NCBI RefSeq assembly: GCF_963675165.1
Contig: NC_087380.1
Coordinates: forward strand, 5,836,071-5,900,070
Source: Halichondria panicea
Lineage: Eukaryota; Porifera; Demospongiae; Suberitida; Halichondriidae
Length of the DNA stretch: 64,000 nt
Reading direction: 5' to 3'
The notes under the pieces were generated by a model that searched no databases, was not told the DNA's origin, and worked only from the letters and a program-made list of their open reading frames with translations. Below, piece after piece: positions 685-51,419 of this stretch (within the stretch, counting starts at the first letter, position 1; every line of letters starts with the position of its first letter). The translations under genes were made by a program, and so were the position numbers.

Positions 685-3600
685 TTATTCATGCACTCGT
701 TTTTTTACCTTTATGAACATCTTAAATGAAAGTTGATCGATAGAAGGAAGAGAAGCAAACTCGTAGAATGCAGCCAATTCTTGACTTTCAAGATTCTTGA
801 ACACCAGACCTTTAGAAGGGTCCATCGAAACTGAGTACACATCTTCTATAGTTGTCAGCTTGGGTAGACGGGCCAGTAACTGTGGAAGAGCTTTTCCCAG
901 TACAGACTTAATGGACTCAAGTGCATTCAGTGCATCCAAATCAGTATCCTGTAATTTAAAAATGCATAGTTACTGCATTAATTGCGTTAAGAGCTTCAGT
1001 CTGCCCTAAGACTCCAAATGTTGTAAGACAGGAAGTGCTACAAGTTGCCTCATGAATATATTAATGAGAACAGTTTTTCTTTGTTTCTGGAGCAATCTAA
1101 GTTGAAATAAGAAGACAGTTTAACATACGATAAACACTTTAAAATATGAATTTGGGTCAAACTGGCATTAAGTTGTGTGAAACGATTGCAGAAAGTTCGA
1201 GTTTTTGAGCAAGCTGTTCACCATCAACGTAGCAAGCTAAAAATTGGTTGATCAATCTAAATTACAACATATTCAAGGTAAATGCCATACAAATGAATGG
1301 TGTGTTTGCAAAGCAGTTACACAAACTTTGAAATAAATACACAACTTGGTAATAGCATAGAACACATCATGAATGACTTCAAGCCTTCTACATGTACGTA
1401 GCTTGCTGCTAAGCATGCACATGCATCAGATGCACTAGTTGATACCGTTAGGCAGTCTCTGGTTCCATTCACATCTGGAGATATGCAGCCATGAGTTCCA
1501 CCAACCACAGACATTATTCAGAATGAGCTAACTTTGAGTTTTTGCGCAAGCTGTTCACACTATCTCAATCCAGTCCAAACTTGCTGAGTCAATACATTCC
1601 ATATTGAACTAATTTATCTCCTAGTAACCGATTCTAGTTCAGTAAATGGTCTGTGTTATGAGCTTTGGAAATTCAGAAAAATCACCCTTCACTACATCTG
1701 ACAGAGTTGTAGGGTGTCATCATTATGAATCTCATTATATAATTACGATAAAACAATGTTTTTTTGTGATGTCATCCTTATGAAACCATTAAAATACTTG
1801 TGGTATGTATTTCCTGTCTTGTCTTGCAAATACTGAAAACCTGGGGGTCTTAGGGCAGACTGCTTAGCAAAAATTAGCAAACCTTAGAGTTATCACTCTC
1901 CTGGAAGATACCAAAGTTGCATATTAAATCTGAGGTGAAACTTCCTTGGAAATTCTGCAAGAAGGCGCCATAATAATTATTATTGTGTACCAGTAACTTA
2001 GTTACCTCCAGTGAATTCCGAAGACTGGGAAGCAGTACCTCAGAACCCACCTCCTCACAACGGGGATCTAAAAACATGCAAAATTTGGGGATAGGGTCAG
2101 AGTCCAACATAATTGAATGGACAGTGCTCCCAAACTGAGGGGCCTCTTCCATTGCCATGGTAACCACAGGGAGGGTGATCATTGGAGCACCTAGTGTGAT
2201 GCAGGCAACATTCTCTTGCAAGGATTCCACACTGAGGAGTGGCTCTCTCCACATCCTAGCAGCCACTGCTTTGGCCAGTAGACCCCCAAATGAGAATCCT
2301 ATAACGGAATTGAATGAGGGGCTGATTATACATGCAATGGCTGAATACCCCACCCCGCAAAAGTGGTATTGTGAAAAACAATAAAGCACATACAAGGTAC
2401 ACATGAATACAAATGCTATAATACCTGTGAATACAATTCGATATCCATCGTGCAGTTGACGGACAAAGAATCGCAGTGGAATCCTATCACTTTGTATCTG
2501 AATTCCTGATGTGTATAAAAGCTCAATGTCAAATCAGTAATAGGTCATTAGAACTCAGATACCTTGCTCAAAAGATTTGAATTTTTTCCTCCAGTCTGAG
2601 AGGAATGGTTCACTCCGGAAAGCAACATAGAACACCTTCCCCTGCCTAGCAATGAGGTAGCGATCGACTTCTTCTCTGTCTTGTGATCGAGAGAGAGACG
2701 CTTCTTCGAGGGAGTGCTCAGGAAACTTCTTATTGAAGAAATCTTTGTAGTCGGCAACAGTACAAGTGCTAGTGGCTAGACTACATAGGCAAGCATGGTA
2801 GACAGCGTCTTTACTGAAAAGTGGTGGAATCTCTTCCGTAGTGGAAAGTTCTTGCTCTTCTAAAGCCCTGGTTGATGCATTTTCCATTACGGCGATTTCT
2901 TTCAAACCCCATTCGTAAATGCTGTTGTCTACAAGTAGATCACCACTATATAATTTAGCAAAAACTTTCCTAATGCTGTCGGTTCCGATTCTTGACTTCA
3001 TTGTGTCTCTTAGAAAGCCAAGCATAGCTCTCTTTATATACCGTACGTTTAGTTGCTCATCCTCTTCAGAATCTATTGGTAGTTTCTTGATTAATTCTAA
3101 CTGTTTTCGCAGTTCCTGTGAAGAAACTTCAAGGAGGTGAGAATTGCCTGCAAAGGATGAAACCAACCCATATAGATTACTTTGTGCAATAGGGGAGTGG
3201 TGATATACCTTCCTCTGCCAGCAATACATCTTTGGCACTTGATTCATCTAAAGAAGAACAATTAAACTACATAATAATAATTAGTTTACTGATTTACAAT
3301 CTTACGTTTTATAACGTGATCTTTTGCTATGGCAATAGCATGTGCTCTGTTGTTTCCACCAGCAGAATGCTCTACTGCTTTAATTATCTTCAGCCATGTT
3401 GGCTTTCCGTGCTTCTTGGTGTCATAGCCCATGCGCACATACTCCGCTACTGTGTCAGCTAAACAATCCTGAACATCTCCCTTGTGCGTGCTCTCGAACT
3501 CATCCAACTTGTTACGCCTTATCCTGAGAGCTGTTCCAATAGCCTTCCATTTTGCGGCAACAGGAGAGAGAGCCTCAATTACGTCAAACATGTCATCCTC

Positions 3601-3853
3601 TCCTGTGTTTGTGTTAGAAGTTGATAACACATCAGGTATTAATTGTGATTCACTTACCAAGTGTTTTTTTATCCACTTGAGGTAGTAATGCTGAAAGATC
3701 TGTAGCTTCTGTAGCTGCCAAACATAAAAGTAGACAAAATTATTATTATTTTTTTTTTATAAACTTGAATTTTAATATAATTTTAGACTCAAAGAATAGA
3801 TCTAGATCTAGGAACTTTTTGCTACAGAGTAAAGTTAAGTTACCTTCGGTCAT
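685..3853 (-). CDS. Death-domain / class-3 lipase-like fusion protein, copy 1
   Basis: Nine exons join in phase: 3844-3853, 3658-3714, 3306-3602, 3209-3247, 2563-3147, 2425-2505, 2006-2298, 1883-1954 and 685-948, giving about 565 residues. Residues about 25-115 form a death domain (SPVAAKWKAIGTALRIR, then a Gly-Gly-Asn-Asn motif before a final helix). After a helical linker, a class-3 lipase fold starts at VFYVAFRSEP (the family has VAFRGT). It continues to the nucleophile elbow GFSFGG at about 357-362 (family GHSLGG) and the acid motif DSDPIPKF. No catalytic His is seen in the last exon; it is either in an unseen 3' exon or absent. The last exon reads nine residues past a possible donor to a stop. 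The intron between exons 8 and 9 carries a TIR element at 997-1862. Copy 2 at 49-51.4 kb has the same exon structure. Domain order suggests a signalling or cell-death role; this is inference. Confidence 0.82.
997..1862. mobile_element. 866-bp TIR element, 3-bp target duplication CTT
   Basis: The ends are inverted copies starting CAGTCTGCCCTAAGAC. They are flanked by CTT at 994-996 and 1863-1865. The paralogous intron of copy 2 (around 49360-49400) carries the uninterrupted site with a single CTT, so the element boundaries and target duplication are read directly. It also contains a partial internal direct repeat (around 1195 and 1530). No transposase is seen, so it is non-autonomous. A 3-bp duplication would fit a PIF/Harbinger-type element, but that is inference. 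Confidence 0.85.
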
Positions 3854-38741: not shown

Positions 38742-41700
38742 CTACTTCGAGTGTACATAGAGTCTGAGTTGCTTGGCCACTTCGTCCTGTTCCAGTTGGC
38801 TCTCAAACACACCGGCCAGCCAGTCACCCACCGCTTGGGGTGGGGCGATCCCGGCATCCTTTAACCTCTCTCGTCCCTCGGGAGTGTTCAAGACAGAATC
38901 ACGGTCTTGGCTGAATGAGAAGAGCTGCACTTCATGAGACGGCACATCACCAAGCTGCTCCCTGATCATCTGTGAACAAGGGGTGGGATTTGTCGGAAGC
39001 ACATGAAAAAACAAATCTAAAACCTCAAAATTATAGTCCGAGGGAAAACCCCACCTTCTGAGTGCCCTTTATCATGTTGCTTGCTCTAAATCTATAGATC
39101 TAGCTAGCTTAATTAGCAAAAGCAAAAGCCAGCGCTATACTACAATAACTGCATGCTCTATATTAATAGTGCTGGGATGAAGATAGCAATGAAGACTCAT
39201 TAAGCATACTCAAGCTGTTGAACATGTTATGGTATACTGTAATATCTAGCTAATTCGTCTGAACTCACTGAGCATTCCTCAGTGATTCTTTGTTTGATGT
39301 AGCTGGCGTCGGGGTGGGAGCCATCTTTGCCCATGTGCTCAGCGTAGAGCTTGTCAGCATAGGTGAGGCACACCAGTACAGGAACTGATTTGTCCTCCAG
39401 CATCTCAAGCCATTTCTTGGCTGACTGGGTGTGTGCTTTCCTGGAGGGTGACAACGTTGTAAATTATAACGATATATTAATTTGTCACTGTTTCTACTAG
39501 ACTACATGTAGTCTAATTAGCAAAATGTAATGACACTGTGGTGGGATCAACTTTAATTCAGCATGCCTGGCCAATTGCAGTTGTAATAGTTCTGTTACGT
39601 AGTAAAATGAGTATTTATAGAGCAATCAGTCAAAAATGAAGCACATGCAGTAGTAAACACCCGCCTAAAAATATATCTGGACGCACTGGTAAGACAAAAG
39701 TCAAAGAAGATGGAACGCTTACATTGATCTCAGTATAATTATGTGTGGCAGATAATAATTAAATTAACCTGTAGTCCACTACGAAGATGACCACTTGTGC
39801 GAGGGCCAGGAGGAGCTCACATAGGTCAGGAATAGTGTCATCTCTGTCATCCACACCAGGGAAGTCGATCACGTCCATTCCATCAATCACACCCTCAAGA
39901 TTGTATAGGAACGGGATTGTGGTACGCTTGACAGCTGTGGTACCAACTGGGACCTACATGAGAAGCAAAAGCAGTAATGCATGACGTGTGCGCATACAAG
40001 CAAAAAATTGGCCACAGTTAAGTTAGCATAAAACACATCTACATGATATATACCTCAATGTTGAAGAGGGTGCTAACGAGGAGGGACTTCCTCGAGTTGA
40101 CGAGCCCCACCACGCCCACAGTTGTGTACTTGGCCAGCTCCTCCCTCAGATTGTGTATCATGAGAGCCCACTTAATCCAGCAGGCTATCAGAGAGCGATG
40201 TGTGGGAACAACCAGAGAAAGGACGTCTTCTTTGAAGAGCTTGTCCCAGTCTCGTACAAATACTTCGAGAGGGGTCGATTCGCTGATGTTTAGCTTCTTG
40301 CAGAGCTCAATAAGTTGGCGTTCGAGTGAGTAGCTGATGTAGTGAGTGTTGCAACTGACTGTCTTGTCCATTCCCTGAATCAAAAACTGGAGCTTGCCAG
40401 CATAGTTGTGATCAGCAGTGGTTGTCTTCTCAGCAAAGATGCCTCTAATGTACTCCTTGACTTGCACCAGAAGAGATCCGGAAGGAATTGAGTGAATGAC
40501 TGCATTCATGTCACCTAAGGAGAGACTGAACATTGCCCATACACCAACAGCGGCAGCATTCACAAGAGCACCTAGTGCCTTAGCTGTGTTGAACTCAGAC
40601 TTGACTAAAGGAACTTTGATTTGATTTTCCATGAACGCCCCCAAAAGGTATGTGCACATTTTAAGATCCTTAGAGCGAATGTAGTTAACTAAGTCTAACA
40701 TCTTTGAGTTGTACAGTTGGGAGAGCCTCTGTCGTTGGTCTTCTTTCAAACTTGTATCACTTGAATCACTGATTGATTGCTGTGATAGCTGTGATAGCTT
40801 CTTTCGACTAACAACAAGAATTTCTAATGGTGATCTTTCTTGAGAATCCAGAGTTGGGTAGATCATACCGAGCTTTAAATCATTGATAGCATTTATCTGT
40901 TCATAATTTTGGGTATTCCTTGATACTCTGCCAGACAATAATAGTATGCGAGACAATAGCTGGAGATTAGGGTGACTTGGTAAAATGGTTTGCAAATATT
41001 CATGTGCATCACTTTGGGTAAATTTTGTCCCACCCTGATAGTAGTGCGCTTGATGGGACTGTTTTGCGTAGAAAGCTTCCCTGTCAATAATTTTATTGAC
41101 AGTAGTGGCACCAGTAGCTCGAGAGGTTTGCTTAGCATACTTCTGGTAGTGTGCACGAGCTGTTTCTCTCGTCACAGTTTTACCTGATACGAACTGCTTC
41201 CAGTTAAGATACTGATCTTCATTTGAATTAAGTTTTTTAGGCTGACCTGTGGTAAGAGTTTGAGCAACCCAAAAAGCACTTTCACCACCTGTTAACAACA
41301 GAAGGGAAGGAGGAAGATCGAGCTGAGAAGACTCCAAAAGGCTACAACATCTGGTCATAATCTCTAGATCATCAGATATGGCAATTGTATGAAAAATGCT
41401 CTCAATAGGAACAACAGAAACTATCTGCTCCAAGAAATGTTTAACTGTGTTGAATCGATGAGAGAACACCTTCAACTTGGTTGTGTGAGGGTGCTGTTCC
41501 AGCAGAGTACTTAGATATGCTGTCTCGATCAGCTCCGAGGGAGTGAGTTTAGCAAGCTGCTCTTGTCGAAAGGTGAAATGAAATACCTATTTATGAGAAG
41601 ATTAAGTAAGTCAACGGTTGTCAAAAACATAAGGAATGCAAAAATAAACGACTCTCAACTGGTTGGTTAGATACGTGCAACAACCAAAGACAGTAGATTT

Positions 41701-44684
41701 TTTTTTTACATAGTTTGTTGCATATCTTTTGAAGTTTAGGTGATATGAGTGCAGGTACTGAAAGTTCAACTATTGGCGCTTCCATTGGACCACCACCTGT
41801 TACATCATATGACATCATCAATATAAAATGGCTGTCTGAAGATGTGTACTTCTGAAAATATGTTAGGAATAGAAGTAGCTTATTTCTTTGAGTTAAGATC
41901 TGAAATGTGTTGTGTATGAACTTGAGGATATTGCTCATCTTTTGAGCTTCAACGGAAGTCTGGGCTACTAGTAAGTTCTGAGAAATACTGCATTTTGTTA
42001 TTTTTTGGTGGCAAATAATTATGTTAGGAATACAACGTTCGATTTTATGCTACCGTAAGACCTCGATTTAAGGCGACACTTTTAAATAATTACGTTTTGC
42101 GAAAGTAGAGTTTTAATGTACACAAAAAAAATGAATTTATATGGTGCTATAATATGGGCGAAATGTCCAAGTGTCGCATATTTAGAGGGTCGCCTTAAAT
42201 AGAGGTTTTACGGTAGTTAATTAAGGTCTGATTTTTGAGAAGCATGTACTACAATAGTATACTTTCATTTGTACTAACTTACTTACAGGAGCTAGACAAG
42301 ACTAGTCTTTTCTTTGCTAGAGCAGCCCTTCTTGTCAAAAATGGTGATTTTGCTCCGTTTTACTGATATTTGCTACATCCAAGCTCATGTGATGTCTACC
42401 TGCAACTACCCAGTTGGTGTTGGTCATTCTGTATCACAGAGGCGTGGCAATTGAGCTTACTACGTAGCCAAATCATCAATGAAAATCACTGTTTTTGACA
42501 AGATGGGCCGCTCTAGCAAAAAAGAGACTAGCCTAACTCCTGTAAGTTAGTACAGATGAAAAGTACACTATTGTAGTACATGCGGCTCAAAAATCAGACC
42601 TTAACTAACATAAACTCAAAAGTTGTATTCCTAACATACTTTCCAAAGAAGCAACAAAATGCAGTATTTCTCGGAACTTACTAGTAGCCCAGATTTCCGT
42701 TGAAGCTTAAAAGTTAAACAATATATAGACAAGTTCATACACAACAAATTTCAGATCTTAACTCAAGCTACTTCTGTTCCTAACGGATTTTCAGAGGTAC
42801 ACATCTTCAGACAGCCATTTAGCGCCAATAGTTGAACTTTCAGTACCTGCACTCAAATAGATCATATCACTTTTACTTTAGAAGATAAGCCACAAAATAT
42901 AAAAATGTTCACCCCCAAAAAAATCTACTCTCTTTGGTTGTTGCACTGTACAGGATTTAAAATTATAAACGAAAACATTGTCTTTTGAAAACTGTGTTGA
43001 TACAGCTAAGGCCACTGTTAGTTACATACTTGTTTCAGATCAACCTCCCTCCTCGGTTTTGCTCACCTCCTCAATTAAGTCATTATTGCTGATGTCAGCC
43101 ATTATTTGAGGTCAAAGTCTTTTTGTTTGCTGACATTGCATTATTTTACCATGTGCAAGTTGCATTGTGCACCAAAAATCCAGTGCGTAAAAAAATTGTT
43201 TTCTATTTTTATGTTCAGACTCCGTCTTTTTGTCACTTAAAAAAACAGGATATGACGTCATCAAATAATGGTATAATGGGTAATGAAGACCTCCCTCCCT
43301 CATCGGGTTGAGCTCAGAGGAGGTTGGACACGAAGCCAAAAAGTTAATAATGACGTAGTCTTTATTAAAATATTAACATTCTTGAACCTTGAACCTACTT
43401 TTATCAAGCTCTTTTCTAGCCAGCAGGCCACCTTTTCATTCTGGAAACAAGAGCATACTTAGATGATGATATAGCTGAGCTATACATTCACTCTACAGCA
43501 CGGTAGCTCCTACTTTATAAAGGTCAGAGGTCAGTTTGACATGACAGAACTACGACCTTTGTGAGAGGTCACCCCTTTTAGGCACTGCACGATTTCTCTG
43601 GAGGGGCGCAGTAGCTAAAAGTTAACTAATTTGCAGCAGCAGTAACATGAAGGGGCTACTTTATCACAAGAATCAGGGCGCGATGTGCAGTCAAACTTGC
43701 AAATTTACTGCACAAAACATAAGCTCACGTGATGATTCATTAGTGACCTTTTGACCCTGTCCACCCTCCTCTGGGTTGAGCTAGTATTCTCATCTGAAAC
43801 AAGTATGCAACTAACAGTAGCCTAATCTATATAGTGCTGATAAGAAACATGCATGATATACTGATTATACATGCATGCAGCCAGGGTTTTATGGGTTAGG
43901 AGGAAAATTCTCTCGTAACTCGATCCCCTTCACACCAGTTTGCAATTAAAACTTGTCTAGAGAGGGTCTACCATACTACTATACAGTTTAAAAATTGCAT
44001 TCAAATTTCAAATACTGTATTACTAGAATGTTTTGCGAGCATCAAACATTTGCGAACTTTGCGAGGGTTGATCAATTCGCAACAATTAAATCCGCAAAAC
44101 CTAAATTATTACTAGTAAAATACACATGATCCTTTCCAGAACGCAATAGTTAGATCGCAAAGGGTCAAATTTTCTGCTGATTTAGCTCATTCGCAAAGGT
44201 TTTTCACCCGCAAAATATTCTAGTAATACGGTACTCTTTCCCCCTATAACTAACAATCTTAGACTCTATAGATTACAGCGTGTATAACCCTAAACTGTAT
44301 TCTATACAACAAACCTTTCGTGAGACTTGTACTTGACCGTCTTTCACTGGATTGGAGAACTGACTAGAAAGTGCTGCTTTAACATGATCAGCATCCATGA
44401 CGATCCTCGTATCATTTTCAGCATCATAGTTAAACTGCAGTGAGTGCTGACTGGTGTCTTTGGCACAGACCTTCGTCTTGTATTGAGCAACTTGAATATG
44501 GTAACAGAACCACAGGTTGTTGCCATTCACTGTCACCGAAACCTCTCTACCATGGCGACGGAAATCGACAGATGTGATTGATGGTGTTACGACATTTAGA
44601 TTTTGTAGTGGTGAGCCAGGTTTAGGTGGTTGCTTGATGTAGCTCCTGAAGACAGCTTGTTGGTAAGATTCGGCATTATGCTGA
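38742..44684 (-). CDS. Protein with C-terminal P-loop GTPase domain
   Basis: Phased exons: 40054-41586, 39769-39953, 39269-39440, 38742-38969 (stop). The large exon begins VFHFTFRQEQLAKLT and runs through a mostly helical region with no recognised domain. It ends with the P-loop GLVNSRKS (G1). The next exon has TT and DFPGVDD (G3), the next TYADKL (a G4-like N/TKxD variant), and the last a possible G5 (FSFSQD) and a helical tail ending YVHSK. An upstream exon at 44305-44684 (an immunoglobulin/IPT-like piece, SVDFRRHGREVSVTVNGNNLWF) ends in the matching phase and is probably joined across a 2.7-kb repeat-filled intron, but this is not proven. The 5' end is not found. The GTPase is not of an obvious named family; dynamin-, GBP- or GIMAP-like folds are possible. 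Confidence 0.68.
39028..39208. repeat. Direct repeat copy 2 in the last GTPase intron
   Basis: Partner of 38490-38678 and almost identical to it. It lies in the intron before the terminal exon. Confidence 0.92.
41690..42945. repeat. Large imperfect palindrome (arms of several hundred bp)
   Basis: The left arm (about 41690-42350) and right arm (about 42480-42945) are reverse complements. Shared words include AGGTCTGATTTTTGAG, TAGTACAnATGAAA-type, TTTTTGACAAGA.GGGC and GTACACATCTTCAGACAGCC. The centre is near 42.4 kb. The left arm is longer because it carries the MITE at 42053-42213, which the right arm lacks. It lies in the long intron of the GTPase gene. Confidence 0.88.
42053..42213. mobile_element. 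MITE, family CCGTAAGACCTCG, TA target duplication
   Basis: Inverted ends CCGTAAGACCTCGATTTAAG and ...TAAATAGAGGTTTTACGG, TA on both sides (42051-42052, 42214-42215). The matching position in the other palindrome arm (near 42610) has the empty site. Degenerate relatives lie near 31.2 and 45.9-46.08 kb. Confidence 0.9.
43010..43822. mobile_element. 813-bp TIR element, TAA target duplication (PIF/Harbinger-like)
   Basis: 31-bp ends with two mismatches: GGCCACTGTTAGTTACATAC... and the inverted GGCTACTGTTAGTTGCATAC.... TAA lies at 43007-43009 and 43823-43825. A 3-bp TAA duplication with GG-starting ends is what PIF/Harbinger elements produce. The interior has further subterminal inverted words (gggttgagct) and no transposase. 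Confidence 0.88.
44015..44231. mobile_element. MITE, family C(T/C)GTATTACTAGAAT, TA target site
   Basis: The ends CTGTATTACTAGAATGTTTT and the inverted CCGTATTACTAGAATATTTT lie between TA dinucleotides (44013-44014, 44232-44233). 217 bp, no coding capacity. Confidence 0.85.
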
Positions 44685-44969
44685 AGTGAATTCGAAAAAT
44701 AAGCACATGTAATTAATGAAAGCACAGTGGAGGCGCAAAGCTTTATGTCATGAATTAAACATACTTATGTACACACTGTACCTGTACTTTGATAATTACA
44801 TAATTTTAATTATGCATCAGAGAATGGTGCAAAAGAGTGCATATGGGAAATGATCGACCATGATTACTGCTAATTTAAAAGAGGATGGAGTGCATATGGG
44901 AAATGATCGACAATGATTATTGCTAATTTAAAAGAGGATACCAAAACAGTGGCCAGGGGGAAGGAACTA

Positions 44970-45433
44970 CAGTGGAACCTCCACCTCCAAAGAGCAACCA
45001 CATGCTATACAACGGCCAAGAGCTTAGGTCCGGATTGAAACTACAATGACTTCAATGTAAAGCAACCTCTCAGGAGCGACTACCTCTCTACTTTGTATAA
45101 CGAGCAGCTTTCTAGTCCCCCAATCAGCTTTAGCAATGGAACCAGAACGGACAGCCACACCCAGAATTAACAGAAAATTATTGCTGAGATAACATTCTTT
45201 TGCACAATCGTGAAAACCTAGCTGTATAGCTTGTCCCTATACAGCTTTTTCAAAGCTTGTATGTGCTAAAGAAGCAGTTAGCAAAGCTCCAAGATTCATT
45301 TGCAGCAAGAAACAGCAAGAAATGGCTCAGAGCATACATAGCTGGCAATCGAAACCCCCAAGGAAGACCACCTCTCTGTAACGGCCAAAAGGCTGTTCCC
45401 CATGCAATGTGTCCTTTTATGGAGGTTCCACTG
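44970..45433. mobile_element. MITE, family CAGTGGAACC, 464 bp
   Basis: The ends CAGTGGAACCTCCA and TGGAGGTTCCACTG are perfect inverted copies flanked by TA. Same family as 8601-8799 but longer. Inner parts contain 'acggccaa' words on both sides. Confidence 0.9.
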
Positions 45434-46723
45434 TATTAATACAAAAACTGCTATAGCTGATAGCTGTATATCAAAGCCATAATAACGAGTGCTGGAAGCT
45501 GCGCTGTGCTAATGCCTCTCGCCATGTTTTGCTTTCGCTCAAAAATTGTTAAGAGTTTTAGAAGACGTAATTATAGTTTACTTTGTATATAATGTTACGT
45601 TATTATTATGCCTCGAGGCTGATAGTCAGAAAAGAGCTGCAAAAGCTGCAACGTACACTGCTAGCCTTCAACCTATATCGTTATTTTAGAGACAAATCGG
45701 CCTGGCAACAGCCCTTTATCCCACCCCTTTTTTATTGACAAGAAATGCAATATAGATCTATACATGCTTTTCTATCCTCTGGCTTCTATATATCCTTGAA
45801 GATCTCAATCATCAGGCCATCAGATAGACTTCTATAATGACTGTGTGGTTCAGTGTCAACAATAATTGCATGCATAACATTATACACTCTAATATGATTT
45901 TCCAGTAGGCTACAATCGAGGCTAGGGAGTGGCTACATTTACCTCTATTTAGGATGCGACATTAAAAAATAATTGTCAACGCAGCTGTCGCTACTTTTAG
46001 AGGTCAGAAAATTGCCTGAGCTCGAGGATGTCGCATATACTTGGAGGGTTGCCTTAAATCGAGGTCTTACGGTAGGTAAGGTAGGTAAGGTAGTAGTTTA
46101 CGGTAGGTAGTTTAAGTAGTAGCTAGTTAGCTACTACCTAAAAGTTACTTTCTTCACTAAAATAGTCAACAAGTCATGTGGCATTTAGTTACTGCACATG
46201 TTCAAACGCTTCATTCTGGGTGTGCATATAATCATAGATATAAGAAGGGAGAGGGATGGGAAACGGAGCACGTGCGCACAATCACTTCTGTGTAATGCCA
46301 GAAGTTGATCCGTGTTTCGCCTCTAGACACCCCGCCAACCCAGCGGGAAATGTTATTACTATATCATTCACAGTTCCCCATTGGGACTCTTAGTCCTGTG
46401 CTGAGCATCCACGCCTACTGTGCATTATATAGAAGTGTTGTGTATCTCACCAAGAGCTTGAAAGCTTTCAAAGGCAGTTTTTTGAGTGTTGTATTATCGT
46501 TTCGGCTCTATCTAGTGGCTTTGTGTACCTTCTACAAGGAGAGGCTGTGACTATACAGCCCAAAATATTAATGATCCTCTCTTTCTTAAGTAACTGGGCA
46601 TTGTATACAAGTAAAATCAAAGCCACTTAGCTTAGGTTGGTAAGTAATGTTCATTTTTGTACGGTGGCCCTGAAGGTCACTCAGCAGTTGTGTTCTCAAC
46701 TTGGTGTTCTGCACTTGAGCTTC

Positions 46724-46830
46724 GCTAGTTGAGCCTTGCGCTAGTTGAGTGATCGCTAGTTGAGCTTCGCTAGTTGAGCCTTCGCTAGTTGAGACTTCGC
46801 TAGTTGAGTCTTCGATAGTTGACGACCTTT
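46724..46830 (-). repeat. 15-bp minisatellite, left array
   Basis: About seven units of the form CTCAACTAGCGAAGN on the minus strand, reading as STSEx repeats in one frame. Inverted relative to the right array. Confidence 0.92.
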
Positions 46831-47382
46831 GACCTATGGGTGTGGTTTGATGCACTAAAGGTACGTACGTACGTACATGCAGGCAAGTGGCAAGATCCAA
46901 GCTTTACAATGACAGTATACAGCACTACAGTATATTTATCAAGAGATATAGATATAGACAACAACTAGAGCTACAAGACAAGTTGTACAGAAATACAGGC
47001 CAGAAATTATGGCCTGGGCATATTAATATTACATGTTCTGTTTTGTGAAGTTAGTGAAAGAATAATTATTACTCAAAGAAGAATATTACTCAAAGAAGTA
47101 CTCATGACAATGTACGTGAGGGCAACTCAATAAATATTCAATAAACAAAAGAGCAAATGATTTGACTGATGAAGATGTGTATCAGGTTGCACAATGAATA
47201 CCAGATGAGATAGATCTACAGGTTCACTATAGTTAAACTCTTCTTACTTCACTTCAGTGGCTAGCCAGCTAGCTATTCTTGATCTTGCAAGCTATTTCTC
47301 ATTAATATGGTCTCGCTTGCTAGGTAGCTGCAGTTACCAACAAACCACACCCATAGGTCAAAGGTCGTAAACTATCGAAGAC

Positions 47383-47680
47383 TCAACTATAGCGAAGGCT
47401 CAACTAGCGATCACTCAACTAGCGATCACTCAACTAGCGAAGGCTCAACTAGCGAAGACTCAACTAGCGAAGACTCAACTAGCAAAGGCTCAACTAGCGA
47501 TCGCTAGTTGTAGCGATCACTCAACTAGCGATCACTCAACTAGCAATCACTCAACTAGTGAAAACTCAACTAGCGAAGGCTCAACTAGCGAAGACTCAAC
47601 TAGCGAAGACTCAACTATAGAGAAGGCTCAACTAGCGATCACTCAACTAGCGGAGGCTCAACTAGCAAAGCTCAAGTGCA
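47383..47680 (+). repeat. 15-bp minisatellite, right array
   Basis: About 19 units of CTCAACTAGC plus five variable bases (GAAGG, GAAGA, GATCA and others). A local inversion (ctagttgtagcg) interrupts it near 47500. It is longer than the left array, so it expanded or contracted after the inverted duplication. Confidence 0.95.
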
Positions 47681-47788
47681 GAACACCAAGTTGAGAACAC
47701 AACTGCTGAGTGACCTTCAGGGCCACCGAATTTTTGTCATAGTAAGCTGGTTTTGAAAAGCAGACTTTTTGTGTACCCATTTAGAAAT

Positions 47789-48040
47789 TTATATCAATGA
47801 TTGAATGTAGGTAAATGTCTCTTTGTATTCATTGATAGTTGGTTCATCGTATCGGCACAGTAATTTACGATAGAACTTTGCTACATTTTCATAATTCTCT
47901 ATCATGTCCGTGACTGTATTGGAATACTCAACGGTACAGACAGAGCTCCTCTCAAGAATTTGCCTGTCCAAACTGCTTTTTACTGCTTGGAGGGGTCTCA
48001 CTAACTGTTGATACCTTGTTGTGACTGTTCCACTAGCCAT
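47789..48040 (-). CDS. Hypothetical 83-residue helical protein
   Basis: The ATG frame MASGTVTTRYQQLVRPLQAVKSSLD..., ending YIQSLI-stop, is predicted helical and has no signal peptide. No family is recognised. Start context and amino-acid composition look protein-like, but it lies inside the foldback element. It could be an element-encoded or captured exon, or chance. Confidence 0.35.
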   Translation of the reverse strand: MASGTVTTRYQQLVRPLQAVKSSLDRQILERSSVCTVEYSNTVTDMIENYENVAKFYRKLLCRYDEPTINEYKETFTYIQSLI

Positions 48041-48192
48041 TGCTAATACATGGAGCTCAGTACCTAGTTTATAGCCTAGTACTAGCTAGAAGCATGGGCT
48101 GGAGGAAATAAAGAAGAAAACATTGACCGAAACGCGGATCCTCAATGTTATTTACGTAGCATTTCCCATCCCTCTCCATTCTTATATCTATG

Positions 48193-49001
48193 GTAAAGTC
48201 GAGTCAAAATACCCTGCATGATGCAAGAATTAACTCAAAGCAAAAGAGGGGAAGGGCGTTTATTCAAGATGTCATTTTCGGATGTCTCTGTGATGAGAGC
48301 TGACTCGTAAGCTAGCTAGAACGTGAGCAACAAACAAGGTAAGCAGGCAACCCTAACTGGATCTATTATGCAAAATACAACTTCATATTAACATTCATAT
48401 TGCAGGAAATGGAACAAAAGGGTCCAAGTTCACCTCTCAGCATGATCAAACAATTAAGGTACCTGTCTTTTCAGATGGATATATCACCATGCAGCTATAA
48501 TTATAGCTACCATGCACTGTATAGTACAAGCTATAGCTATAGCAATAAACGAAATTAGCTGAATCAATTCTAAATGTTCACTATAATAATTATGATAACG
48601 AAGTGATATTATCACTTCGCATAATTGGAAAAAAGTGCTTCAATTCGAGACAAAAATCTGCAGTTGAGTATGCGCTTAAAATAAAGATACGGAAACTGTA
48701 TACGAACTTACCAGAACGAGCTAGGGTTACCAATTGGCTTGTCTCTATTATGTGTTTGTCCCAATATACGATAATGTATTTTATATTCGGTGGCATCAGT
48801 GATGCCTGTCTGTCAGCCACAACTTATTATGTCATCACCTACTGTAAAGCTTGAATATAATAAATTATTCTAGTGCTGAGCTATAACTAACTATAAGTAT
48901 AGAGTATACGTAGCAACACTTCATGGAAAAATTTTGCTATGCACTATTCTGCAAATGGCATTCTATAGATTGCATAAATTCAATAAAACGTGGCTAGAAG
49001 C
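48193..49001. other. Intergenic, one possible orphan exon
   Basis: 48405-48460 (EMEQKGPSSPLSMIKQLR) is bracketed by a good acceptor (tattgcag) and a donor (gtacct) on the plus strand, and an ATG (MSFSDVSVMRADS) lies upstream near 48269. The phases do not give a long product, so no gene is called. From 48.9 kb the dispersed 'gcacaccgaggca' repeat follows. Confidence 0.4.
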
Positions 49002-51419
49002 CTATATAATTACAATTGTATATAGAAACTCTTTTGCACGAATATCGGTGCACACCGAGGCACAATTAGGCACAATTATATGCATGCACTTATGCACTAG
49101 TTGTTTTTTTACCTTTATAAACATCTCAAAAGAAAGTTGATCGATAGAAGGAAGAGAAGCAAACTCGTAGAATGCAGTCAATTCTTGACTTTCAAGATTC
49201 TTGAACACCAGACCTTTAGAAGGATCCATCAAAACTGAGTATACATCTCCTATAGTTGTCAGCTTAGGTAGGCGGGCCAGAAACTGTGGAAGAGCTTTGC
49301 CCAGTACAGACTTAATGGAAGCAAGTGCATTCGGTGCATCCAAATCGGTACCCTGTAAAGTGCATCATTCACAGCATTGCGTTAAGGGCTTAGCAAACCT
49401 TAGAGTTACCACTGTCCTGGAAAATACCAAAGTTGCATGTTAAATCTGAGGTGAAACTTCCTTGGAAATTCTGCAAAAAGGTATCTATTTGTGCTATGCA
49501 GTATAACTTTATTACCTCCAGTGATTTCCGAAGACTGGGGAGCAGCACCTCAGAACCCACCTCCTCACAACGGGGGTCCAAAAACATGCACAATTTGGGG
49601 ATGGGGTCAGAGTCCAACATAATTGAATGGACAGTGCTCCCAAACTGAGGGGTCTCTTCCATTGCCATGGTAACCACAGGGAGGGTGATCATTGGGGCAC
49701 CTAGTGTGATGCAGGCAACATTCTCTTGCAAAGATTCCACACTGAGGAGTGGCTCTCTCCACATCCTAGCAGCCACTGCTTTGGCCAGTAGACCCCCAAA
49801 TGAGAAACCTATAGGAAGTACATGATTTGTTGTAATGTTGAACAATGCCTCTGAAAATATGTGGCGTGTCAGACAGTAGAAGATTTTACAACAAGTGAAA
49901 CAGGTTTACCACTGCTATTACCATGCATACCTGTGAATACAATTCGATATCCGTCGTGCAATTGACGAACAAAGAATCGCAGTGGAATCCTATCACTTTG
50001 TATCTGAATTCCTGTGTATACAAATTTTGTAAAATTTAGTGTTATAGCCCATCAGAATGTACGTACCTTGTTCAAAAGAAGTGAATTTCTTCATCCAGTC
50101 TGAGAGGAATGGCTCACTCCGGAAAGCAACATAGAACACTTTTTCCTGTCTAGCGATGAGGTAGCGATCGACATCTTCTCTGTCTTGTGATCGAGAGAGT
50201 GACGCTTCTTCGAGGGAGTGCTCAGGAAACCTCTTGTTGAAGAAATCTTTGTAGTCGGCAACAGTGCAAGTGCTAGTGGCTAGACTACACAAGCAAGCAT
50301 GGTAGACAATATCTTTACTGAAGAGTGGTAAAACCTCTTCTTTAATGGGGAGTTTTTGCTCCTCTAGAGGCTGGCTTGCCTCTTTATCTAATAAACCAAT
50401 TTCTCTCAAAGCCCATTCGTAAATGCTGTTGTCTACAAGCAGGTCACAGCTATACATCTTAGCAAGGACTTTCCTGACACTGTCGGGCCCAATTCCAGAT
50501 TTCAACGTGTCCTTTATAAAGCCGAGCAAGGCTCTTTTTACACACCGTACATTCTGTTGCTCATCCTCTTCAGAATCTATTAGAAGTGTCTTAATTGATT
50601 CCAACTGTTTTCGCAGTTTCTGTGAAAGAGCCTCAAGGAGGTGAGAATTGCCTGCAAAGGATGAAACCAACACATATAGATTACTTTGTGCAACAGGGGG
50701 TGGTGATATACCTTCCTCTGCCAGCAATACATCTTTGGCACTTGATTCATCTAAAAGAAGAACACAATAATTGATACAGAGGATTTCAGGTTGGTTGGCA
50801 GAAGTTAAAAGTTGAAGTGCACGCAACCATGTCCACATACTGTGTGTTTCTCCCTACTAATGTAATTAGTGGTCATGGTTGACTGCACTTCAACGTTTAA
50901 TGTCAGCTTACGATTTAAAATGTGATCCTTCGCTATGGCAATAGCATGTGCTTTGTTGTTTCCACCAGCAGAATGCTCTACTGCTTTGATTATCTTCAGC
51001 CATGTTGGCTCTCCGTGCTTTTTGGTGTCATAGCCCATACGCACATACTCTGCTACTGTGTCAGCTAAACAATCCTGAACATCTCCCTTGTGTGTGCTCT
51101 CGAACTCATCCAACTTGTTACGCCTTATCCTGAGAGCTGTTCCAATAGCCTTCCATTTTGCGGCAACAGGAGAGAGAGCTTCAATTACGTCAAACATGTC
51201 CTCCTCCCCTGTGCATAGAGCCACGGAGCAGTCAGTACATTATCAGCGACACCAAACAATATTAAGGAAACCATTCATTATTATTAAATCATCATGTTCA
51301 TCTTCACTTACCAAGTGTTTTGTTATCCACTGCTGAAAGATCTGTAGCTTCGGCTGTAGCTGCTAAAGGAACAAATTAGTAAGAGAAAGAATAGCTATTA
51401 CAGACTTACCTTCAGTCAT
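49002..51419 (-). CDS. Death-domain / class-3 lipase-like fusion protein, copy 2
   Basis: Nine phased exons: 51410-51419, 51312-51359, 50912-51208, 50712-50750, 50067-50651, 49931-50011, 49516-49808, 49399-49470, 49002-49352, giving about 591 residues. Exon lengths equal copy 1 except exons 2 and 9. The death domain is intact (EEDMFDVIEALSPVAAKW, ...SAGGNN). The lipase part has VFYVAFRSEP, GFSFGGLLAKAVA (nucleophile Ser) and LDSDPIPKL (acid). The last exon continues past a possible donor (gtaaaaaaac) to a longer tail (VKKQLVHKCMH...) than copy 1. The 3' end, and with it any catalytic His, is uncertain. It is transcribed divergently from PPWD1 with 132 bp between start codons, so the two probably share a promoter. 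Open throughout; likely functional. Confidence 0.85.

Follow-up and report, generated by a model that had tools for sequence, protein, structure and literature searches.

A sponge gene joining a death domain, a class-3 lipase core with weak likeness to EDS1 and a TRAFAC-type GTPase, and its family

Immune lipases of the EDS1 type are known from plants. EDS1 retains the Ser-Asp-His residues, yet its immune role works without hydrolysis. On the side of the GTPases, we know of no lipase in the URGCP/VLIG or dynamin-type families. Death-fold proteins with enzyme effectors or NTPases have been described for Amphimedon and other animals. In Amphimedon, the joining of death-like N-termini to effector enzymes is a described immune theme, for which the section of the paper devoted to these proteins names caspase, PNPase and HD as potential enzymatic effectors (Kaur et al. 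2021, PMC8195603). The Halichondria panicea gene described here shares with these death-fold proteins an N-terminal death-like domain and an enzymatic part, and NTPases occur in the related systems, but the proteins of that section are TRADD-N proteins and no lipase is among the Amphimedon effectors named there (Kaur et al. 2021, PMC8195603).

We analysed a stretch of 64,000 nucleotides from the genome of Halichondria panicea (hereafter the window), which contains a gene, termed gene A, with the domain order death domain, helical region, class-3 lipase, beta-rich region, helical module and TRAFAC-type GTPase, as well as part of a tandem copy (copy B). Their features, in window coordinates, are as follows.

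Gene A: 38742..51419, minus strand; 14 exons and 1383 aa in the spliced model.
Exon 3: 50912..51208, minus strand; death domain, from a local death-domain profile, a bridging homologue and four genome loci.
Exon 5: 50067..50651, minus strand; helical linker (by eye) and start of the lipase with VAFRSEP, conserved in seven aligned family proteins.
Exon 7: 49516..49808, minus strand; lipase core with GFSFGG and DSDPIP, from Pfam Lipase_3 and a PAD4/EDS1 profile match.
Ser357 codon: 49801..49803, minus strand; putative nucleophile, conserved in all ten members with coverage here.
Asp422 codon: 49606..49608, minus strand; putative catalytic residue, conserved in the same ten members.
Exon 8: 49399..49470, minus strand; donor AAG|GTTTGC, picked for frame and recurring in copy B.
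Exon 9: 49113..49352, minus strand; donor AAG|GTAAAA at its end, common to copy B.
Exon 10: 44315..44680, minus strand; opens with the putative catalytic His557 (KHNAESY), followed by the beta-rich region (by eye).
Exon 11: 40054..41586, minus strand; helical module of ~480 aa and GTPase G1 motif, from 13 genome loci and AF2.
Arg1177 codon: 40090..40092, minus strand; AGG, in the P-loop GLVNSRKS, with Gly in the 12 other loci.
Exon 12: 39769..39953, minus strand; GTPase G2 (GTTAVKRTT) and G3 (DFPGVDD), from 13 loci and Pfam MMR_HSR1 (9.3e-6).
Exon 13: 39269..39440, minus strand; GTPase G4 position (CLTYADKL).
Exon 14: 38742..38969, minus strand; end of the GTPase region and stop codon.
Copy B, exons 1-9: 709..3853, minus strand; death domain and lipase, with exons 10-14 to the left of the window in the stretch L021.

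All 14 exons of gene A are open and bounded by GT-AG sites in the spliced model. Exons 1-9 (51419-49113, minus strand) contain the VAFRSEP, GFSFGG and DSDPIP motifs and show a death domain joined to a lipase-3 domain in a single gene, as proposed in an earlier, sequence-only reading of this DNA. That reading had treated these nine exons as the whole gene, ending near 49002, and here it does not hold. The sequence past 49113 is read-through beyond the splice donor AAG|GTAAAA, which is also present in copy B, and for the read-through region (48960-49110) the genome offers a single further match, a partial one. When the two copies were compared, homology was also seen at 44287-44755 and 40051-41619, where exons 10 and 11 lie, and five further exons are matched by copy B, with 80-98% amino-acid identity between A and B across exons 10-14. 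The GTPase, these last five exons, the second copy within this window and a family of 13 loci had all been overlooked. Two introns of gene A are large (4.4 kb and 2.7 kb), the 4.4-kb intron preceding exons 10-14. The large intron also contains oppositely oriented short tandem repeats (units ~ctagcgaagactcaa) at 47.4-47.7 kb and ~46.7-46.8 kb.

Copy B has open counterparts for all 14 exons of gene A, in the same order. Gene A and C15a, one of eight related loci on the contig termed C15 (C15a to C15h), were modelled by hand and separately, and all of their exon phases agree from the lipase to the end. Complete open models were obtained for copy B, C15b, C15d and C15e, for C15c in all but exon 3 and for C15f from about exon 3; the template phase was required by the script used for copy B and C15b-f, so their phases are not evidence, whereas their open frames are. 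Between A and B the dN/dS ratio is 0.27 for the whole protein, with values of 0.17 for the death domain, 0.28 for the linker, 0.17 for the lipase, 0.42 for the beta region, 0.37 for the helical module and 0.09 for the GTPase. All parts of gene A therefore look to be coding and under purifying selection.

The assignment of exon 3 to the death domains, also made in the sequence-only reading, required evidence beyond Pfam. The Pfam Death model matches the nine-exon window protein at E 0.09 and exon 3 alone at E 0.0089 (16.6 bits against a cut-off of 22.6), both below the cut-off, and a death domain is absent from the Pfam matches to the full 1383-aa protein. For a local death profile we took 40 Pfam-Death regions of this genome, hand-picked down a list of 148 genome Pfam Death matches, and used 39 of them, one region being left out because it was in the wrong frame. 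This profile matches exon 3 with 26.6 bits (E 5.3e-7), against a maximum of 7.1 bits over 2000 shuffles; among 246 ORFs of the window, the death-exon ORFs of A and B score 25.4 and 26.5 bits and the next ORF 6.8. A bridging homologue (C4:2507680) matches exon 3 at E 5.8e-14 and Pfam Death with 28.2 bits, and is the one of eight exon-3 homologues to exceed the cut-off, three others falling below it and four giving no match. Searching PDB with a two-sequence profile of the death exon found no death domain, and the AF2 model of exon 3 alone (pLDDT 47) is too poor for use. Membership of exon 3 in the death domain superfamily is supported at the level of sequence by the local profile and the bridging homologue, although its Pfam score stays under the cut-off.

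The lipase-3 domain deduced earlier from the motifs is borne out by Pfam, which matches Lipase_3 above its cut-off both in the nine-exon window protein (9.8e-8) and in the full protein (2.9e-7, 30.9 bits, cut-off 22); copy B and C15a (7.9e-7) pass as well. The sequence-only reading had seen no catalytic His and, from this and the GFSFG elbow, had argued for a possible pseudo-lipase. Ser357, Asp422 and His557 are all present, in order, and most likely the “missing” His is the residue that opens exon 10. Counted over the 13 loci, with the C8 copy and C15h outside coverage, Ser357 (in GFSFGG) and Asp422 (in DSDPIP) are kept in the ten members covered (A, B, the third C4 copy, C15a-f and C9), and His557 in 11 of 11 (the same ten and C15g). 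The assignment of His557 is by place and conservation, since the alignments to solved lipases end before it. The pseudo-lipase argument falls because the three residues are kept in all covered members, some of which are ~33% identical. The beta-rich region (by eye) past His557 has no Pfam match, and no signal peptide is evident by eye. In its Lipase_3 match, GxSxG-type elbow and triad residues the protein resembles the DAG and fungal lipases of class 3, but it differs from them in the GFSFGG form of the elbow and in its fused domains.

A possible relationship to EDS1 had also been suggested, and part of this suggestion stands. A lipase family profile built from five members (A, B, C15a, C15e and C15f) ranks PAD4 (6e-4) and EDS1 (0.003 and 0.011) first among PDB entries, followed by two PAD4 entries at 0.077 and then fungal lipases at 0.39. 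In single-sequence searches the fungal lipase 1lgy came first (0.002) and EDS1 second (0.036, 0.023). As a like-for-like control we ran a single-sequence search with a protein of the same genome (C5), which on our own reading we take to be DAG-lipase-like; EDS1 or PAD4 appeared in none of its 28 PDB rows to E 10, of which 26 were lipases and esterases and two were unrelated chains. This control matches a different set of PDB entries from the lipase of gene A. As the profile finds PAD4 and EDS1 first and the control finds neither, the likeness of the lipase core to EDS1/PAD4 is weak but looks specific, with one control behind it. Asp422 and His557 are separated by 135 residues, presumably close to the corresponding spacing in EDS1. 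The class-3 lipase core is what gene A has in common with plant EDS1/PAD4, the top solved-structure matches of the family profile. In contrast, no EP domain (we take EDS1_EP to be the relevant model) is found among Pfam matches to E 1 for the full gene A protein, and this animal protein carries a death domain, a beta-rich region, a helical module and a GTPase. Membership of the EDS1 family was rejected, since a GTPase and helical module are found in place of the EP domain.

The GTPase is recognised by Pfam MMR_HSR1, which passes in gene A and in C15a (1.3e-9), and a GTPase profile matches eIF5B (5.8e-5), EngA (4.7e-4) and Era (0.012) in PDB. The family contains the TRAFAC motifs G1 (GLVNSGKS), G2 (GT...RTT) and G3 (DFPGVDD), but the G4 consensus N/TKxD is not seen at its place, which reads T-F/Y-A-D in seven aligned proteins and T-H-G-D in C15h. 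C15a has weak matches to Dynamin_N (1.3e-5, 25.7 bits, cut-off 27) and URGCP_GTPase (0.0061), both below the cut-off, which recall the dynamin-type and URGCP/VLIG GTPases; in contrast, MMR_HSR1 is the model that passes for both gene A and C15a. The P-loop reads NSGKS in other loci and NSGKT in the C9 gene, and NSRKS in gene A only (one of 13). This Gly to Arg change rests on a single base and may therefore be an allelic variant or a fault in the assembly. Gene A may be a regulatory copy with poor nucleotide binding. Exon 11 is predicted by AF2 to be almost entirely helix (pLDDT 64, moderate), and the predicted structure gave no informative fold match. Elsewhere in the genome (C12, ~1.04-2.08 Mb), open frames of very large size (870-4555 aa) that match MMR_HSR1 form an array; several lie ~2 kb from Pfam Death matches, and they resemble giant VLIG-type GTPases with death domains.

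Searches with exon 11 revealed at least 13 distinct loci in the Halichondria panicea genome, and exon 12 found the same ones: eight on C15, three on C4 (the window gene among them) and one each on C8 and C9. The death domain of gene A is found at four loci (C4, C8) with 88-100% identity. Five tandem copies on C15 have a different N-terminal domain of ~100 aa; one such N-terminus, scanned with the local death profile, gave no match, and none of 56 genome Pfam CARD matches (to E 1) fall on C15. The death-domain part is therefore not family-wide. With its 148 Death and 56 CARD matches, the genome agrees with an animal origin. C15f is ~33% identical to gene A in the seven-protein alignment. Exon 3 of C15c, one of the five tandem copies (L023 5118-5760), has an in-frame stop, which marks either a pseudogene or else an allelic variant or a fault in the assembly. 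With its 13 or more loci, the family suggests a type of immune or cell-death signalling protein that has not been described before.

Our preferred interpretation, to which we assign a probability of about 0.5, is that these proteins form a cytosolic family of signalling lipases for immunity or cell death, assembled through the death domain and gated by the GTPase. The N-terminal death domain would recruit, or be recruited into, a death-fold assembly, and in the C15 copies the other N-terminal domain would take over this place. The C-terminal TRAFAC GTPase may serve as a switch, acting via the helical module, and the EDS1-like class-3 lipase in between could work as the effector or as a lipid sensor. 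The lipase retains Ser, Asp and His and probably hydrolyses an acyl ester once switch and assembly are on. If this is correct, the fusion of an EDS1-like lipase core to a death domain and a GTPase in an animal genome, under constraint between copies and with 13 loci, would tie together the immune toolkits of plants and animals, and lipase, switch and death-fold assembly could be studied within one protein.

It is very improbable that the window holds two genes here, one with death domain and lipase that stops near 49002 and another for the GTPase: such an arrangement might be suspected from the 4.4- and 2.7-kb introns and from an open read-through past exon 9 that reaches a stop at 49002-49004, but the exon phases fit, the donor closing exon 9 recurs in copy B, the likely catalytic His sits in exon 10 and, from the lipase onward, the C15a introns at the same junctions are just 48-177 bp. 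It also seems distinctly unlikely that gene A is decaying while other members of the family supply the function, as all of its exons are open, its GTPase is constrained between A and B (dN/dS 0.09) and the loss of the P-loop Gly in A alone, which prompts the idea, concerns one base, so that an allele or assembly error is possible.

The role of the lipase admits other readings. The main rival, put forward in the sequence-only reading, is a non-catalytic hub of the EDS1 kind, whose lipase fold would hold a partner protein or a small molecule and serve purely as a scaffold for signalling. The ranking of PAD4 and EDS1 by the family profile, their absence from the DAG-lipase-like control, the Asp-His spacing and the precedent of EDS1, whose triad is dispensable for immunity, all favour such a hub, but the reason originally given for it, the lack of a His, has fallen with the conserved triad residues, and there is no EP domain among the Pfam matches; on balance we consider it possible but rather unlikely. 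Against our preferred interpretation count the limitation of the death domain to part of the family, the stop in C15c, the altered P-loop of gene A and the retention of class-3 lipase residues in metabolic lipases too. A membrane-lipid enzyme with a dynamin-like or Era-like GTPase, acting in membrane traffic or repair instead of immunity, would accommodate the Dynamin_N score of C15a, slightly under its cut-off, and the large helical module that separates lipase from GTPase; we regard it as unlikely as well, given the death domain at four loci and a tandem expansion with varied N-termini, which would be more typical of defence genes. More speculative than the signalling lipase, and in our view doubtful, is the idea that one animal protein unites parts that in plants are divided between a receiver of the EDS1 type and its helpers, with an expansion and diversification like those of immune gene families; here the EDS1-like lipase pocket would sense a lipid or nucleotide-derived messenger, the GTPase would be the switch and the death domain would start cell death.

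The surroundings of gene A and copy B provide some further observations on the duplication. A multi-pass membrane-like gene (by eye) at 36.5-37.6 kb of the window (plus strand) and at L021 3064-3762 has been duplicated along with genes A and B, and the duplication unit therefore exceeds the lipase gene. The divergent neighbour of gene A at 51.5-52.9 kb (plus strand) resembles PPWD1, and short pieces of it are also present upstream of copy B, where they probably mark the edge of the duplication.
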